Assembly: GCA_017449025.1 (NCBI GenBank)
Contig: JAFSKJ010000070.1
Location: forward strand, 1 to 43,120
Direction: 5' to 3'
Length of the DNA stretch: 43,120 nt
Source: Prevotella sp.
Lineage (GTDB): Bacteria > Bacteroidota > Bacteroidia > Bacteroidales > Bacteroidaceae
In this document: positions 17,745 through 24,148 of the stretch, one piece after another
Layout: every line of letters begins with the position of its first letter
Numbering within the stretch: position 1 is the first letter of the stretch
The notes under the pieces: generated by a model
Databases searched by the model: none
Told to the model about the DNA's origin: nothing
What the model saw: only the letters and a program-made list of their open reading frames with translations
Position numbers and translations under genes: made by a program

Positions 17745-17775
17745 TTTGGTATTTCAAAAATTTGATGTAATTTTG
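17745..17775 (+). promoter_or_regulatory. gdhA: Bacteroidetes promoter for gdhA
   Basis: TTTG (17745-17748), a 19-nt spacer and TAATTTTG (17768-17775) match the Bacteroidetes -33/-7 consensus closely. The predicted start site near 17782 gives an A-rich leader of about 58 nt before ATG 17841. Confidence 0.8.
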
Positions 17776-17840: not shown

Positions 17841-19178
17841 ATGAATGCAGCACAAGTTGTAGAACAGCTGAAGCAGCGCTTCCCCAACGAGCCGGAGTAC
17901 ATCCAGGCCGTAAGTCAAGTTCTTCCCACCATTGAAGAAGAGTACAACAAGCACCCTGAGTTTGAGAAGGCCAACCTTATCGAGCGCCTGTGCATCCCCG
18001 ACAGGGTATGTGAGTTCCGCATCACTTGGGTTGACGACCAGGGTAAGGTGCAGACCAACATGGGTTACCGCATCCAGCACAACAACGCCATTGGCCCGTA
18101 CAAAGGCGGTCTTCGCTATCACAAGAGCGTGAACCTGGGTATCCTGAAGTTCCTCGCCTTCGAGCAGACCTTCAAGAACTCGCTGACAACCCTACCCATG
18201 GGTGGTGCAAAGGGTGGTTCCGACTTCTCGCCCCGCGGCAAGAGCGACGCTGAGGTGATGCGCTTCTGCCAGGCATTCATGAATGAACTCTACCGCGTGA
18301 TTGGTCCCGACGAGGATGTTCCCGCCGGCGACATCGGCGTTGGTGGCCGTGAAGTTGGCTATCTGTTCGGTCAGTACAAGAAGCTCACCCACCAGTTCCA
18401 GGGCGTGCTGACAGGCAAGGGCATCCCCTTCGGCGGTTCGCTCATCCGTCCCGAGGCTACTGGTTACGGTACCGTTTACTTCCTTACCTCCATGCTTGCC
18501 ACCCGCGGCATCGAGCTGAAGGGCAAGAAGGTGCTGATTTCCGGTGCCGGTAACGTGGCTCAGTATGCTGCCGAGAAGTGTCTGCAGCTGGGTGCCATCC
18601 CCATGACCATGTCAGACTCAGACGGTTACATCTACGACCCCGACGGCATCGACCGCGCCAAGCTCGACTATATCATGGAGCTGAAGAATGTGGAGCGCGG
18701 ACGCATCAAGGAGTATGTTGAAGAGTATCCCACCGCAGTTTATCACGAGGGCAAGCGCCCCTGGTACGAGAAGGCCGACATCGCCCTGCCTTGCGCTACA
18801 CAGAACGAGATCAACGGCGACGAGGCTGCCGCTCTGGTGAAGAATGGTGTGATTGCCGTTGCCGAGGGTGCCAACATGCCTACCCTGCCCGAGGCCATCA
18901 AGATCTTCCAGGATGCCAAGCTGCTCTACTCTCCCGGTAAGGCCAGCAACGCCGGCGGTGTGTCGGTCTCTGGTCTTGAGATGTCGCAGAACTCTGAGCG
19001 TCTGAGCTGGACTGCTGAGGAGGTTGACAACTACCTGAAGCGCATCATGAACGACATTCACGAGAACTGCGTGAAGTACGGTACGGAGAAGGATGGCTAC
19101 ATCAACTACGTCAAGGGTGCCAACGTTGCCGGCTTCATGAAGGTGGCCAAGGCCATGATGGCTCAAGGCATCGTGTAA
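17841..19178 (+). CDS. gdhA: Glutamate dehydrogenase, hexameric family I
   Basis: GdhA interconverts 2-oxoglutarate plus ammonium and glutamate, the main ammonium-assimilation entry in many Bacteroidales. The 445-residue length fits the bacterial small hexameric class. Substrate-binding GPYKGGLRYH (Lys88) and catalytic PMGGAKGG (Lys124) are present, and the Rossmann domain shows ISGAGNVAQYAAEK. The cofactor is probably NADP, but I cannot settle it by reading. The gene is monocistronic: strong promoter upstream, hairpin terminator downstream. Its last codons lie in a 21-bp direct repeat (19168-19188 and 19214-19234), a small duplication that copied the stop region. Codon use is very regular, as expected for a highly expressed gene. 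Confidence 0.97.
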   Translation: MNAAQVVEQLKQRFPNEPEYIQAVSQVLPTIEEEYNKHPEFEKANLIERLCIPDRVCEFRITWVDDQGKVQTNMGYRIQHNNAIGPYKGGLRYHKSVNLGILKFLAFEQTFKNSLTTLPMGGAKGGSDFSPRGKSDAEVMRFCQAFMNELYRVIGPDEDVPAGDIGVGGREVGYLFGQYKKLTHQFQGVLTGKGIPFGGSLIRPEATGYGTVYFLTSMLATRGIELKGKKVLISGAGNVAQYAAEKCLQLGAIPMTMSDSDGYIYDPDGIDRAKLDYIMELKNVERGRIKEYVEEYPTAVYHEGKRPWYEKADIALPCATQNEINGDEAAALVKNGVIAVAEGANMPTLPEAIKIFQDAKLLYSPGKASNAGGVSVSGLEMSQNSERLSWTAEEVDNYLKRIMNDIHENCVKYGTEKDGYINYVKGANVAGFMKVAKAMMAQGIV

Positions 19179-19234
19179 GCTCGACGAAGTCAAGGTTGTC
19201 ACGATGATGACAAGCATCGTGTAAGCTCGACGAA
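19168..19234 (+). repeat. 21-bp direct repeat spanning the gdhA stop codon
   Basis: GCATCGTGTAAGCTCGACGA (plus A) occurs at 19168-19188 and again at 19214-19234, a 46-bp period. The first copy encodes the end of GdhA. Between them CACGATG (19200-19206) can pair with CATCGTG (19215-19221), so the duplication also creates a 7-bp hairpin just after the gene. Confidence 0.8.
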
Positions 19235-19268
19235 TTAGCTAACCAATCACACAAAAACTAACTCGAAA

Positions 19269-19298
19269 GGGGATGTGCCTGCTATCAGGTGCATCCCC
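19269..19298 (+). terminator. Hairpin terminator after gdhA
   Basis: GGGGATGTGCCTG (19269-19281) and CAGGTGCATCCCC (19286-19298) form a 13-bp stem with two G-U pairs and a CTAT loop. No strong U-tract follows, so termination strength is uncertain. Confidence 0.55.
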
Positions 19299-19305
19299 TC
19301 TCTCA

Positions 19306-19372
19306 GCCCCCTTGCCCCCTAAAGGGGGAACTACAGACTTTGCAGGAACTTCCCCTTTAGGGGGTTGGGGGG
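19306..19372. repeat. G/C-run palindromic repeat, copy 1
   Basis: Arms CCCCCTTGCCCCCTAAAGGG... and the inverse ...CCCTTTAGGGGGTTGGGG flank a short centre (CTACAGACTTTGCAGGAAC). A nearly identical copy is at 21767-21831. The outer words reappear inside the DarA-like gene near 32223-32276 and, more loosely, at 35941-35972. Confidence 0.85.
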
Positions 19373-19406
19373 CTCTACGAGGCACGCCTTTTCCTGGCAT
19401 CTTCAT

Positions 19407-19477
19407 ACCAGCCATTTCGCCATACCTCTGGCATGGCTGTATGGCTGGCTACCCCTATCAAGCCCCTCTGGGGCTTT
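19407..19477. repeat. ATGGCTGTATGGCTGG palindromic repeat, inverted copy
   Basis: This is the reverse complement of 117-187. It retains the right arm ATGGCTGTATGGCTGG and the flank GGCTACCCCTATCA followed by a GCCCC..GGGGC hairpin. The left arm has diverged (CCAGCCATTTCGCCAT). Confidence 0.8.
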
Positions 19478-19527
19478 AGGCTGCGCACAGTTTTCTCTTC
19501 GGATTTTCCGTGCGGGTGAACAGCATT

Positions 19528-19616
19528 ATGACCGCAACGCGGTCATCTCTCAATAACGGGCGGTGCGAAGCAACCCAAGAGAAGATGAGGGTAGGACAAC
19601 GACCCAAAAAGGGTCG
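19528..19616. repeat. Two short perfect hairpins in the repeat island
   Basis: ATGACCGC (19528-19535) pairs with GCGGTCAT (19539-19546) across a 3-nt loop. CGACCC (19600-19605) pairs with GGGTCG (19611-19616) across AAAAA. Neither belongs to a gene; they extend the palindrome-rich island between gdhA and the lipid locus. Confidence 0.6.
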
Positions 19617-19662
19617 CCCAATATTGCTGCTGGGGCACTCTTTCTTTCCGCTACATTCTCGA

Positions 19663-19736
19663 TTCCGCAGGTCCTTCGGACACTACGGCATTGAGAGGAG
19701 ACGCTTACAGCGTCTTTTCAACCGCACTCAGTGGCT
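19663..19736 (-). repeat. GCGGTTGAAA/GACGCTG structured repeat, inverted copy
   Basis: Read on the minus strand it begins GTGCGGTTGAAAAGACGCTG, continues TAAGCGTCT and ends GTCCGAAGGACCTGCGGAA. Both ends match the copy at 43009-43106; the beginning matches the one at 42673-42726. GACGCT/AGCGTC forms an inner hairpin. The middle section differs in length among copies. Confidence 0.8.
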
Positions 19737-19749
19737 TTATATTAAAAGA

Positions 19750-19836
19750 TGTGTCAGCCTTGTGTCACCCGTGTCACCCTTGAAAAAGGCTGCAAACGCC
19801 CTGTACATCGGCGTTGTGTCAGCGTGACAACCTTTT
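19750..19836. repeat. GTGTCA word array with flanking hairpins
   Basis: The word GTGTCA is iterated (GTGTCAGCC, GTGTCACCC, GTGTCACCC). A hairpin AACGCC/GGCGTT and then an inverted word pair follow (GTTGTGTCA 19813-19821 and TGACAAC 19825-19831, followed by CTTTTTT). That last part could act as an intrinsic terminator before the lipid-locus promoter. The layout parallels the arrays at 16-46 and 42908-43000. Confidence 0.6.
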
Positions 19837-19950
19837 TTGCGAATTCTATCAGTTTATTTGTTTATTTGTTAAGGTATGTTTATAAAATCGTTTTTCTTCA
19901 CGTTTTGCCACTTTTTGCCGTTTCAATTCTTCTGTTTCACGAAAAAATAG

Positions 19951-19958
19951 TAATTTTG
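19951..19958 (+). promoter_or_regulatory. Bacteroidetes -7 box (TAATTTTG) for the lipid locus
   Basis: TAATTTTG matches TAnnTTTG exactly. A convincing TTTG 19-21 nt upstream is not visible, though the region is T-rich. Transcription would start near 19965, leaving a leader of about 140 nt before the ketoreductase ATG at 20106. Confidence 0.65.
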
Positions 19959-19964
19959 CAGCCG

Positions 19965-20105
19965 CAAACATGAGCACATTGTCTAATGTGTCTACTCGAC
20001 GAGGCGAGAAAACTCCTCAGAGCAAAGGTTTTACACGGCTTTTGCCATCTTCGGTGTCGCAGCCGGAGGGTCGGTAGAATGTGCTCTTAAACCAAATAGA
20101 AAGAA
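19965..20105 (+). ncRNA. Structured 5' leader of the aryl-polyene-like locus (candidate cis-regulatory RNA)
   Basis: GAGCACATT (19972-19980) pairs perfectly with AATGTGCTC (20078-20086), closing a domain of about 115 nt. Inside are GAGG/CCTC (20001-20004, 20015-20018), GCAAAGG/CTTTTGC (20022-20028, 20039-20045) and CTTCGG/CCGGAG (20049-20054, 20063-20068). CACATT of the closing stem can instead pair locally with AATGTG (19985-19990), so two folds exclude each other, as in attenuators and riboswitches. I do not recognise any known riboswitch class. The fold was drawn by eye, not calculated. Confidence 0.45.
19970..20077 (+). CDS. Possible 35-codon leader ORF inside the structured leader
   Basis: An ATG at 19970, about 5 nt after the predicted transcription start, opens 35 codons (MSTLSNVSTRRGEKTPQ..., ending PEGR) and stops at 20075-20077, just before the right arm of the long-range stem. 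Translation would unwind the left arm, so it could act as a leader peptide. A chance open frame is quite possible: it is short, has no ribosome-binding sequence and no recognised homologue. Confidence 0.2.
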   Translation: MSTLSNVSTRRGEKTPQSKGFTRLLPSSVSQPEGR

Positions 20106-20837
20106 ATGAAATATGCACTTGTAACGGGTGGCTCAAGAGGTCTCGGAAGAGCCATTTGCCTGGAGATTGCCAGAAAAGGAATCCCCGTAATCGTAAACTA
20201 CCAGTCGAACCACCATGCCGCCGCCGAAGTGAAAGCCACTATTGAGGCTGAGGGCGGCCATGCCGAGCTGATGGCATTCGACGTGTCAGAGCAGGAGTCA
20301 GTGGAAACAACCCTCGATGCCTGGCAGGAGTCTCATCCCGACGACTATATTGCCTACCTTGTGAACAACGCAGGCATACGTCGCGACAATGTAATGTTCA
20401 TGATGCCCACCGAAGACTGGCAAGCCGTGATAAGCACCTCGCTCGACGGGTTCTTCTACGTTACACGCAAGCTACTGCCAAAGATGCTGCAGCGCAAGCA
20501 TGGCGGACGCATTGTCAACATGTCATCGCTGTCGGGGCTCAAGGGCATGCAGGGGCAGGCAAACTACAGCGCAGCCAAGGCTGCCGTCATCGGTGCCACC
20601 AAGGCGCTGGCTTTAGAGACAGCCCCCCGCAACGTTACGGTCAACGCCGTGGCGCCTGGTTTCATTGATACCGACATGACCCGCGAGTTGCCTAAGGACG
20701 AGCTGAAGGAGCTTATACCCATGAAGCGCTTTGGGCAACCAGAGGAAGTGGCTGCCCTCGTGGCGTTCCTGCTGTCGGATGCTGCTGCCTATATAACAGG
20801 ACAGGTGATCGGCATCAACGGAGGGCTTTACACATAG
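20106..20837 (+). CDS. 3-oxoacyl-ACP reductase (FabG/ApeQ-like SDR)
   Basis: This short-chain dehydrogenase reduces 3-oxoacyl-ACP to 3-hydroxyacyl-ACP with NADPH, one step per chain-elongation cycle. The 243-residue protein has the cofactor motif TGGSRGLGR (7-15), NNAG (87-90), and the catalytic set Ser141, Tyr154 and Lys158 (NYSAAKAA). It closes with the usual [11 protein letters not shown]. It is the first gene of the lipid locus, behind the structured leader, and corresponds to the ketoreductase ApeQ of aryl-polyene clusters. The next gene follows after 28 nt. A housekeeping FabG role cannot be excluded, but the context argues for the dedicated pathway. Confidence 0.93.
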
Positions 20838-20865: not shown

Positions 20866-21738
20866 ATGAGGAAAAACGGCACTACATACGGAAGTGCATG
20901 GATGTTCAGGATGCTGATTAGTGGGCTTCGCTCCATTAACATAAAGGTGTTCTATACATTCATGGCCATCTGTGTGATACCCGTCACGCTGGTGTTCAGC
21001 CCAGGTGCCCATCTCACCCTTCGCTACTACCACCGCCGCCGCGGCTATGGCTGGTGGAAGGCGCTGGTGGCCACCTACCGCAACCACTGCATCTTCGGCC
21101 AGACCGTAATAGACAAGTTTGCCATGTATGCAGGCCACAAGTTCCGCATAACCTACAATGGGCTGGAGCTATACAGGGAGCTGTGCGCCAGCGACAAGCC
21201 CCTGCTGCTACTCAGTGCCCACATGGGCTGCAGCGAGATTCTGGGTTACTCAGTCCACCACGACAAGCCGTGCAATGTTCTTGTCTATGGCGGCGAGAAG
21301 CAGTCGCTGATGAGCTACCGCCGCACATCGTTCAGCAACTCTAACATAAGGATGATTCCTGTGGGCACTGCCACATCGCACAGCGACGAGATTATCAGTG
21401 CCTTGGACAATGGCGAGATTATCAGTGCCTTTGCCGACAGGTTCATGAATGCCAACAAAGTTCTGGTGTCAACCCTCCACGGCTTTCAGGTGAGCCTTGC
21501 CAAAGGGCCATTCTCGCTTGCCACCACCCGCGGCATTGACGTCATGATGATGAGTTCCATGAAAGAGCCTGACGGCTCTTACTCAGCATTCTTCACTCCC
21601 CTACCCTACGACCGAACACTGCCGAAGAGCCAGCAGCGCCAGCAGCTTGCCGATGCCTACACCACTGAGATTGAGCGCCTGCTTGCCATTTATCCGCTGC
21701 AGTGGTTTAACTATTCAAACATTTGGATTTGTACGTAA
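20866..21738 (+). CDS. LpxL/HtrB-type acyltransferase, copy 1
   Basis: This membrane-associated acyltransferase of the lipid A late-acyltransferase family moves an acyl chain from ACP to a lipid acceptor. The 290-residue protein has an N-terminal hydrophobic helix (about 27-46) and the catalytic HX4E motif as SAHMGCSE (His119, Glu124). Homology to the second copy at 23237 is visible across the whole length (NHC.F.Q.VID.FAMYAG, the LPYD stretch near the end, P.QW.NY). The ATG follows a GGAG-like sequence. In aryl-polyene-type loci such enzymes probably attach the finished polyene acyl chain to the membrane anchor. Two copies in one locus suggest two acylation steps. Confidence 0.85.
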   Translation: MRKNGTTYGSAWMFRMLISGLRSINIKVFYTFMAICVIPVTLVFSPGAHLTLRYYHRRRGYGWWKALVATYRNHCIFGQTVIDKFAMYAGHKFRITYNGLELYRELCASDKPLLLLSAHMGCSEILGYSVHHDKPCNVLVYGGEKQSLMSYRRTSFSNSNIRMIPVGTATSHSDEIISALDNGEIISAFADRFMNANKVLVSTLHGFQVSLAKGPFSLATTRGIDVMMMSSMKEPDGSYSAFFTPLPYDRTLPKSQQRQQLADAYTTEIERLLAIYPLQWFNYSNIWICT

Positions 21739-22106: not shown

Positions 22107-23213
22107 ATGGAATTGTTTCCCGACTTGAAAAAAAGATACACCGAGGAACACTTGTCGGCCCGTGAAGCCCAGCGCTTGGCAGAGTTCATTGCATGGGGGC
22201 CGATGGTGTTCCAGGTTTCGAGACTGATGGTGAAGACCGGGATATTGGAAATGATACGCAATTCGTCGGAGGGCATTACCCTTGAGGAGATTATAGAGCA
22301 TAGCGGTCTGACTGACTATGCAGTGAAGTGCCTGATGGAGGCCTCGTTAGCCATAGGCACCATATTGGTAGACGCCGACACCGACCGCTTCACCATTTCT
22401 AAGACAGGCTGGTTCCTTCTGAACGACCCGGCAACACGCGTGAACCTCAACTTCAACCACGATGTAAACTACATTGGCATGTTCAAGCTCGAAGAGTCGC
22501 TATCCAGCGGCAAGCCTGAGGGGCTGAGGCATTTCGGCGAATGGCCGACGATATATGAGGGACTGTCGTCGCTGCCGGCCGACGTGCAGAAGAGCTGGTT
22601 TGACTTCGACCATTTCTACAGCGACTCGTCGTTCGACGAGGCACTGAGGATTATATTCGACGAGCACAAGGTGAAGTCGCTCTATGACGTAGGCGGAAAT
22701 ACCGGAAAGTGGGCACTACGCTGCGTTGACTACTCCCCCGAAGTGCGTGTCACCATCCTCGACCTGCCGCAGCAGATACAGATGATGCTTGACAACACCA
22801 AGGGTAAGAAGGGAGCTGAACGCATAAGCGGTTACGGCATTAACCTGCTCGACGAGAACAGCTCTTTTCCGGAATACGACGGCGAGCTCGATGCCATCTG
22901 GATGAGCCAGTTCCTCGACTGTTTCAGCATGGACGAGATTACCAGCATTCTGCTTCGGGCAAGAAAGGCAATGACTTCGCGCACGCGCATATATATTATG
23001 GAGACGCTATGGGACCGCCAGCGCTTCGAGCCGGCAGCGTTCTGCATGACCATGACCTCGCTGTACTTCACGGCAATGGCCAACGGCAACTCCAAGATGT
23101 ATAACACCCGCGACATGGAGCTTTGCATAAAAGCCGCAGGATTAGAGATAGAGCACATTTACGACTACTTGGGGCAGGGGCACTCCATCCTGGTTGTAAA
23201 AAAGGCAGAATAA
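22107..23213 (+). CDS. SAM-dependent O-methyltransferase
   Basis: The 368-residue protein resembles plant-type or polyketide O-methyltransferases: an N-terminal winged-helix dimerisation domain (about 25-110, TLEEIIEHSGL) and a C-terminal Rossmann domain with the SAM-binding motif LYDVGGNTGKW near 200 and a following acidic motif ILDLPQQ. In aryl-polyene and flexirubin loci a methyltransferase decorates the aryl head group, so methylation of a phenolic oxygen or ring position is the likely role. The substrate is inferred. It lies after a 368-nt gap filled by repeats and could have its own promoter, though none with TAnnTTTG is seen. Confidence 0.85.
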   Translation: MELFPDLKKRYTEEHLSAREAQRLAEFIAWGPMVFQVSRLMVKTGILEMIRNSSEGITLEEIIEHSGLTDYAVKCLMEASLAIGTILVDADTDRFTISKTGWFLLNDPATRVNLNFNHDVNYIGMFKLEESLSSGKPEGLRHFGEWPTIYEGLSSLPADVQKSWFDFDHFYSDSSFDEALRIIFDEHKVKSLYDVGGNTGKWALRCVDYSPEVRVTILDLPQQIQMMLDNTKGKKGAERISGYGINLLDENSSFPEYDGELDAIWMSQFLDCFSMDEITSILLRARKAMTSRTRIYIMETLWDRQRFEPAAFCMTMTSLYFTAMANGNSKMYNTRDMELCIKAAGLEIEHIYDYLGQGHSILVVKKAE

Positions 23214-23236: not shown

Positions 23237-24148
23237 ATGGCGGAGGCAAGACAGTGGGGCGGAACTACGTTTGGCAACGAGCTTATGCACCGTTGGCTGA
23301 TAAAACTGCTGCGTGTGGTAGACACGCGCCTCATCTATCTTTTCACCTACGTCTTCATTGTCCCGCCGACTCTGTTCTCGCCTGGTTTCGGCCATGCCTA
23401 CCGTTTCTTCCGCGAGCGCTTTGGCTACTCCAAGCTTCATTCGCTGACTATGGCCTTCAAAAACCACTGCATGTTCTCGCAAGTGGTGATAGACAGGTTC
23501 GCGATGTACGCCGGCCGCAAGTTCAAGATTGAGTTTGAGGGCTACGACCACTTCCTTGACTTAACCTCCAAGCCCGACGGCTTCGTGCAGCTAAGCTCGC
23601 ACGTGGGCAACTATGAGATTGCCGGCTACTCGCTCGTGGCTGAAGCAAAACGCTTCAACGCATTGGTGTTTTTTGGTGAAAAACAGGAGGTTATGGACAA
23701 CCGTACAAAACTCTTCACCCACACCAACATACACATGATACCTATAAAGTCGGATATGAGCCACCTCTTCGAGATAAACAACGCCCTGTCCAACGGTGAG
23801 ACTGTGAGCATACCTGCCGACCGCATCTGGGGGTCGCAGAAGTATGTTGTGAAAAATGTGCTCGGACGGGATGCCTACCTGCCAAAGGGGCCTTTCCAGG
23901 TGGTGGCCATGCGCGGCGTAGACGTGCTTGCCGTACACGTGGTGAAGACCGCCTCAAAGCGATATAAGATTATTGTCAAGCCGCTACCCTACGACAAGGA
24001 GGCTCCGCGCAAACAGCAAATCGACGAGATAGCACAGCGCTATGTGGACGAGCTGGAGCGCATAGTGCGGCTCTATCCCACGCAGTGGTACAACTATTTC
24101 GACTTCTGGGCCCAGCACCGCGACGAGAAGGAACAGGACGGCAATTAA
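23237..24148 (+). CDS. LpxL/HtrB-type acyltransferase, copy 2
   Basis: This is the paralogue of the gene at 20866 and has the same family architecture over 303 residues: hydrophobic N-terminal helix (about 31-50), HX4E motif as SSHVGNYE (His122, Glu127), and the conserved LPADR-like stretch (SIPADRIWGS). Its HVGNYE is closer to the canonical HxGNWE than copy 1, which reads HMGCSE. A role in acylating the membrane anchor of the polyene, or the polyene itself, is inferred from context. It sits between the methyltransferase (23 nt) and the dehydratase (13 nt). Confidence 0.86.
   Translation: MAEARQWGGTTFGNELMHRWLIKLLRVVDTRLIYLFTYVFIVPPTLFSPGFGHAYRFFRERFGYSKLHSLTMAFKNHCMFSQVVIDRFAMYAGRKFKIEFEGYDHFLDLTSKPDGFVQLSSHVGNYEIAGYSLVAEAKRFNALVFFGEKQEVMDNRTKLFTHTNIHMIPIKSDMSHLFEINNALSNGETVSIPADRIWGSQKYVVKNVLGRDAYLPKGPFQVVAMRGVDVLAVHVVKTASKRYKIIVKPLPYDKEAPRKQQIDEIAQRYVDELERIVRLYPTQWYNYFDFWAQHRDEKEQDGN

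Follow-up and report, generated by a model that had tools for sequence, protein, structure and literature searches.

UpxY-family proteins reportedly recognise a paused RNA polymerase, with nascent hairpins helping. Passages of a review describe UpxY as preventing premature termination in 5' leaders, and the Bacteroides loading sites (Chatzidaki-Livanis 2009; Saba 2024) belong, as passages of citing papers present them, to factors of this family that are encoded first in long surface-product operons. The element described here is tied to the same kind of factor, but it is part of the upxY coding sequence, adopts a defined fold with a pseudoknot and occurs in stand-alone copies, which sets it apart from the Bacteroides sites as those passages portray them. 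RfaH of E. coli, a trans-acting NusG paralogue, loads at the leaders of several operons, and ops is 12 nt long and recognised in the non-template DNA; a trans-acting NusG paralogue at several operon leaders is also what we would propose here. By eye, the window tail resembles ops in CGGTAG only, and these letters stand in a shifted register with respect to the proposed pause. A conserved multi-hairpin RNA is not known to be part of ops. LoaP of Bacillus is a NusG paralogue that uses a leader RNA hairpin on polyketide operons (dfn/mln), and in this use of a leader hairpin it is alike. The Bacillus leader carries one UNCG-type hairpin, and an intrinsic terminator comes after it. In contrast, neither is conserved in the element described here, and by eye no LoaP-type UNCG loop is conserved in our alignments A2 (20 gap-free relatives) and A3 (a broader alignment). 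The open-licence literature searched yielded no report of an element of this kind in Prevotella.

The leader studied here lies in a 43,120-nt stretch of Prevotella DNA (the window). Its features, and the changes seen in A2 and in A4 (90 model-aligned matches, 87 of them distinct), are as follows.

19951..19959, + strand: Bacteroidetes -7 promoter box TAATTTTGC, a motif match
19967..20088, + strand: the whole stand-alone upxY-type RNA element, matched by covariance model R1 (70.9 bits, E 1.3e-18)
19970..20077, + strand: 35-codon open reading frame, read as a upxY 5' coding remnant, sharing MSTLSNVxTRRGE with intact UpxY proteins
19972-19980 with 20078-20086, + strand: long-range stem P0, a feature of the window sequence; pairing probabilities of 0.998 and 0.988 for two of its pairs when the full leader is folded; no covariation in relatives
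19975-19980 with 19985-19990, + strand: hairpin P1, loop GTCT; two-sided changes in 1/6 pairs (20 relatives) and 4/6 (87 distinct A4 rows)
19995-19998 (CTCG) with 20005-20008 (CGAG), + strand: pseudoknot stem S1; two-sided changes in 3/4 pairs, 91.3% of cells paired (20 relatives)
20001-20004 (GAGG) with 20015-20018 (CCTC), + strand: pseudoknot stem S2; two-sided changes in 1/4 pairs (20 relatives) and 4/4 (87 distinct rows)
20022-20028 (GCAAAGG) with 20039-20045 (CTTTTGC), + strand: hairpin P3; two-sided changes in relatives in 8/8 model pairs
20049-20054 (CTTCGG) with 20063-20068 (CCGGAG), + strand: hairpin P4, from the R1 alignment and the predicted fold
20069..20083, + strand: tail GGTCGGTAGAATGTG with a candidate pause (G-10 at 20073, T-1 at 20082, G+1 at 20083), from column frequencies in 90 elements

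The first-pass annotation had described a structured, probably cis-regulatory leader with a 9-bp perfect long-range stem, a competing 6-bp hairpin and a 35-codon frame reaching the right arm of the stem, and these three features are exact in the sequence. GAGCACATT at 19972-19980 is the perfect complement of AATGTGCTC at 20078-20086, CACATT at 19975-19980 can pair instead with AATGTG at 19985-19990, and the frame runs from an ATG at 19970 to a TAG at 20075-20077 that abuts the right arm. Structure as such is also borne out, both by covariation of the local fold in relatives (below) and by folding energy: the 141-nt leader reaches -44.9 kcal/mol against a mean of -33.6 (sd 3.8) in 200 shuffles, of which one was as good (z -2.98). 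With spans capped at 45 nt, the leader folds at -32.6. P1 is present in the minimum-energy fold at the tested 3' ends from 20060 to 20080 and is gone at ends of at least 20086. Judging by the box TAATTTTGC (consensus TAnnTTTG), transcription would start at about 19963-19967, upstream of both long-range arms and just before the fold. The window holds 7 boxes of this type where chance would give 3.7, which makes the one at 19951-19959 weak evidence when taken alone; a second TAATTTTGC box stands at 17768, upstream of a glutamate dehydrogenase gene.

A blastn search of 60 genomes with the leader gave matches in 13, its own genome counted. The weaker matches reach no further than the promoter-like end (query positions 2-31). 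Outside the own genome, the best four (L002 to L005) span the body of the leader, and each of them falls on the 5' end of a gene whose product, of about 222-227 aa, belongs to the UpxY family NF033644 (115-130 bits, cutoff 100). The family profile begins at residue 47-48 of these proteins, which places the element upstream of the NGN domain, within an N-terminal extension. R1, built from 30 upxY 5' ends with the window and stem S1 left out, returned the element listed above as its sole match in the window at E <= 1 (E-values are rough). These comparisons show the leader to be a homologue of the upxY 5' end (the first ~42 codons), from genes of the same bacterial family that encode NusG-type antiterminators. 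In the R1 alignment the frame of the window is moved by 2 nt in the P3 loop relative to upxY and stays shifted from there on, which marks the open reading frame as what is left of a upxY 5' end after a frameshift. No UpxY homology follows within 1.3 kb downstream; the upxY body of this operon appears to have been lost and its RNA part kept. The own genome holds one DNA-level copy of the leader by blastn and two elements by R1, which disposes of a repeat unrelated to the locus, a case the first reading had allowed for.

What is conserved is the local fold, which in relatives comprises P1, an H-type pseudoknot (S1 x S2), P3, P4 and a near-invariant GGGGTGTC tail, and not the long-range stem. In A2, 96.6% of the cells of P1, S1 x S2, P3 and P4 are paired, and 13 of the 29 pairs show two-sided changes (35 cells vs 7.5 in shuffles, 0/500 as high), while slid controls give at most 4 such cells. 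RNAalifold, unaided, finds the same P1, S2, P3 and P4 on A2, and P1, P3 and the outer P4 stem only on A3. A4, whose alignment was fitted to the structure, contains 254 two-sided cells, where shuffles give 77.8 and slid controls no more than 56. Among 39 non-overlapping nearest pairs of elements, a comparison that limits relatedness, we counted 25 compensatory, 48 one-side-kept and 50 broken cases, against 3.0 compensatory (maximum 7 in 300) and 72.6 broken when partners were permuted, and 1 to 8 compensatory when structures were slid. The long-range stem, in a 7-pair version, is paired in 63.6% of cells in the 20 relatives vs 61.6% in shuffles (68/500 as high), and we discarded it as a conserved structure. 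Compensatory changes in the leaders of relatives, the check named in the first reading, are present in the local fold but absent from the long-range stem; P0 and P1 do compete in the sequence of the window, but P0 is not kept in relatives. At least 8 pairs between the first 50 and the last 24 nt occur in the predicted folds of 53 of 129 distinct elements, with the window joint tenth at 17 pairs, and long-range pairing so common in predicted folds is weak evidence taken alone. Six elements of longer UpxY extensions (L089, L091, L170, L190, L192, L196) have a predicted pairing of a 5' CACCC with a GGGGTG in the tail that competes with P4. The element at L330 carries 33 additional nt inserted in the P3 loop, with a broken upxY downstream.

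The element is widespread. R1 matched 41 of 200 genus genomes at E 0.01, 77 of 398 at 1e-6 (the two genus sets overlap) and 57 of 399 family genomes at 0.001, covering 18 of the 30 sampled genera; in the 200-genome set it begins 56 of 76 UpxY genes. We classified 182 places in these draft assemblies: in 150 (109 + 41) the element starts an intact upxY, in 16 (13 + 3), the window among them, it has no UpxY homology behind it, and the remaining 16 are partial, broken or at contig ends. Left out of this count are weak matches in G105 (L142, L143; E 0.007-0.009) and the L169 pair, which duplicates L203; nor does it hold the matches G066:C4, G008:C28, G168:C29, G152:C22 and G015:C37 (5/5 overlap UpxY genes) or those in G276 and G378, which came from the family-genome search. 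The genes next to intact upxY (112 of 129 candidates scanned) include SDR/FabG (7), sugar transferase (6) and Poly_export (6) among 76 families in total, each matched by at most 7 members. Of 181 elements tested, 51 have a TAnnTTTGC box in the 160 nt before them. By pattern match only, a CCACGC-TTTT motif lies within the same distance of 42 of the 181 (L134, L203, L330 and L074, for example); by eye, CCACGC and its T run often form a terminator-like hairpin end, upstream rather than downstream of the element. The two motifs never occur together within these 160 nt and may mark two leader architectures.

Stand-alone copies precede varied genes. One (L135) stands before a Poly_export gene that is followed by a Wzc-like gene, one (L131) before a hexapeptide transferase and a MatE-like protein just below the Pfam cutoff, with a short UpxY C-terminal fragment by eye, and others before a small ORF followed by a nucleotidyl transferase (L223), a ketoacyl synthase III (L132) and a ClpB-like ATPase (L134). 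L338 is near-canonical, has its own promoter motif and precedes acyltransferase and FlxJ homologues in a second aryl-polyene operon, whose next gene is 71% identical to the second gene of the window operon. Three copies (L213, L361, L369) precede miscellaneous genes; their near-alike elements stand before a 495-codon ORF of unknown type, a DUF2971 gene and a small operon that includes an SF1-type helicase, a pattern suggestive of a cargo-swapping spot. Partial or degenerate copies are also found (L136, L138-L140, L215, L217).

In the window, the element ends shortly before an operon whose first genes are listed here.

20106..20837, + strand: first operon gene, FabG/FlxB-type SDR reductase (NF053542 FlxB, 385.7 bits, cutoff 340)
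20866-21738, + strand: acyltransferase (PF03279)
22107-23213, + strand: FlxJ methyltransferase (NF053543, 590.6 bits, cutoff 560)
23237-24148, + strand: second acyltransferase (PF03279)

The fabG start lies 17 nt past the element. Ketoacyl synthases and LolA2_flexi are among the further genes, and by these profile matches the operon is a flexirubin/aryl-polyene-type cluster; the FlxB-like, FlxJ and LolA2_flexi genes agree with the aryl-polyene-like locus named in the earlier reading. In a close relative (G032), a upxY with the element directly precedes a gene orthologous to fabG (84% identical), and the next five aryl-polyene genes, when tested, also had homologues there. Five more close relatives (G758, G726, G614, G747, G189) likewise have the element and an intact upxY before fabG. 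A FabG search of genome contigs put five close Bacteroidales among the best 80 loci listed. In 30 fabG loci, UpxY homology was found in the flanks of 4 and in none of the other 26, the window locus included; two of the four (G032, G189) carry the element, and two (G182, G135) a divergent UpxY without an R1 match. Divergent UpxY genes before fabG orthologues at L023 and L025 have hairpin-like 5' coding ends by eye, possibly a second type of element; R1 had no match in the genomes of these two loci.

Within intact genes, the element is constrained at the nucleotide level. In 32 intact upxY genes with a 129-nt element, synonymous divergence (pS) is 0.32 in the element vs 0.81 elsewhere, and 493 of 496 gene pairs have the lower value inside the element. 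Amino-acid divergence is alike in the two parts (0.23 in the element, 0.26 in the rest). The first codons of upxY must therefore hold a second, nucleotide-level message. The window copy might still be a decaying relic, a upxY 5' end that lingers without function while fabG is driven by its promoter alone, a reading that we regard as unlikely though deserving of attention. Its frame is broken and its P4 is shortened, with CTTCGG/CCGGAG and a short loop in place of CCCC/GGGG with an inner part, so that the function of P4 may have drifted. Several copies without an intact upxY (L133, L136, L138-L140, L215, L217) are partial or degenerate, as decay would have it. However, all 22 of the aligned pairs in the window are standard pairs in A4 despite the broken frame, even though 11 of 44 stem positions have changed relative to the nearest intact copy, with 4 pairs changed on both sides. 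Random substitution keeps a mean of 14.3 pairs and did as well as the window in 0 of 20,000 draws, its baseline being the nearest intact copy rather than the true ancestor; the 83 other A4 elements, stand-alone copies set aside, are 93% paired on average (minimum 78%). The same test on seven stand-alone copies is in part on the side of decay, since three fail to beat chance (L132 0.17, L135 0.09, L136 0.46). Against it, the aryl-polyene operon at L338 retains its near-canonical element together with the promoter motif.

The leader is a real, conserved, folded RNA, and we favour the reading in which it is probably a docking site for a factor encoded elsewhere in the genome. RNA polymerase would transcribe the element, the nascent RNA would fold into P1, the pseudoknot, P3 and P4, the polymerase would pause in the tail past P4, and a UpxY-family factor would dock on the paused polymerase, which could then read through the long downstream operon. 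Binding of UpxY, pausing, antitermination and action in trans are what we infer. The consensus of the elemental pause in E. coli is G-10, Y-1, G+1. In the 90 elements, GGGGTGTC after P4 is kept in 84 to 90 per column and is followed by a looser GGTARRRTATG, with GG at 60 and 62 and the final G at 84. Only 60 of the 90 retain the G that would stand at -10 of the pause. By analogy with this consensus, the pause in the window would fall at 20082/20083, where, in the folding model, the right arm of the long-range stem would still not be free. Such a course of events would resemble UpxY recruitment as citing papers describe it. It is less probable, in our estimate, that UpxY or another protein binds the RNA to control downstream translation or stability, as an autoregulatory operator with no polymerase loading, and we give this reading little weight. 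It would suit the overlap of the element with the upxY start codon in intact genes and the conservation at the level of RNA pairs, but the near-invariant tail is more like a sequence signal, and termination in 5' leaders is where the review passages place UpxY. A ligand riboswitch or leader-peptide attenuator toggling P0 and P1, as first proposed, is very improbable, for although the two stems exclude each other and P0 prevails when the full leader is folded by prediction, it is P0 that is not conserved (by eye absent in L338), no terminator-like site occurs in 19200-20300, the open frame is a frameshifted upxY relic and no Rfam family matches at gathering score.

Docking of a factor would require a source for it in this genome. 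In the window genome, the operon would have lost its own upxY body and retained the element, and so the factor must come from elsewhere in the genome. The only other upxY found there (G000:C84:679-1299; E 7.2e-66 with A1) lies on a 4.3-kb contig of an assembly that is 80.65% complete, and its product, at 94.4 bits under the NF033644 cutoff of 100, is a candidate trans factor for the window leader. The P3 stem of the window agrees with that of this upxY in 13 of 16 positions, which ties for the best score among 89, a suggestive likeness that was noticed post hoc; by eye, no comparable P3 match was seen in G220 or G121. UpxY above the cutoff is present in 10 of the 15 genomes with stand-alone copies (5/8 + 5/7) and absent from G000, G096, G097, G768 and G347. 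We consider it fairly likely that the window copy is a loading or pause site for a UpxY acting in trans, as predicted from these comparisons. This simple loading-site model leaves the upstream CCACGC-TTTT motif (42/181) unexplained. More tentatively, and with somewhat less than even confidence, we suggest that the RNA is dual-coded: the 5' end of an antiterminator gene would both code for protein and load its own factor, and would repeatedly have been freed to place new operons (pigment, capsule and others) under a trans factor, giving an RfaH-like regulon assembled from cis-acting parts, with P3 as a possible specificity stem.

The earlier reading could match the leader to no known class. This stands as far as Rfam is concerned, with 0 matches at gathering score in the window and in the loci of 8 relatives, but the element is recognisably derived from upxY and recurs at many loci. 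At looser thresholds, Rfam gave 3 chance-level matches around the leader and, across 12 loci, 5 matches, of which one is a real tRNA (L066) and none falls on the element; the strict and looser results together ruled against a ligand riboswitch. A leader-peptide attenuator with terminator stem, U-run and control codons was rejected likewise. The element represents a structured RNA family without a match in Rfam release 15 in these searches, tied to antiterminator genes and standing in part ahead of surface polysaccharide and aryl-polyene genes. It explains the scarce synonymous change in the first upxY codons and would help to predict UpxY targets from sequence, and the window locus would be a natural experiment in which the site outlives its gene.

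Two repeats lie upstream of the leader in the window. An exact 21-nt direct repeat (19168-19188 and 19214-19234, copies 46 nt apart) begins in the 3' end of the glutamate dehydrogenase gene, and an inverted repeat at 19305-19374 has 23-nt arms that are 87% complementary and rich in CCCCTTTAGGGGG.
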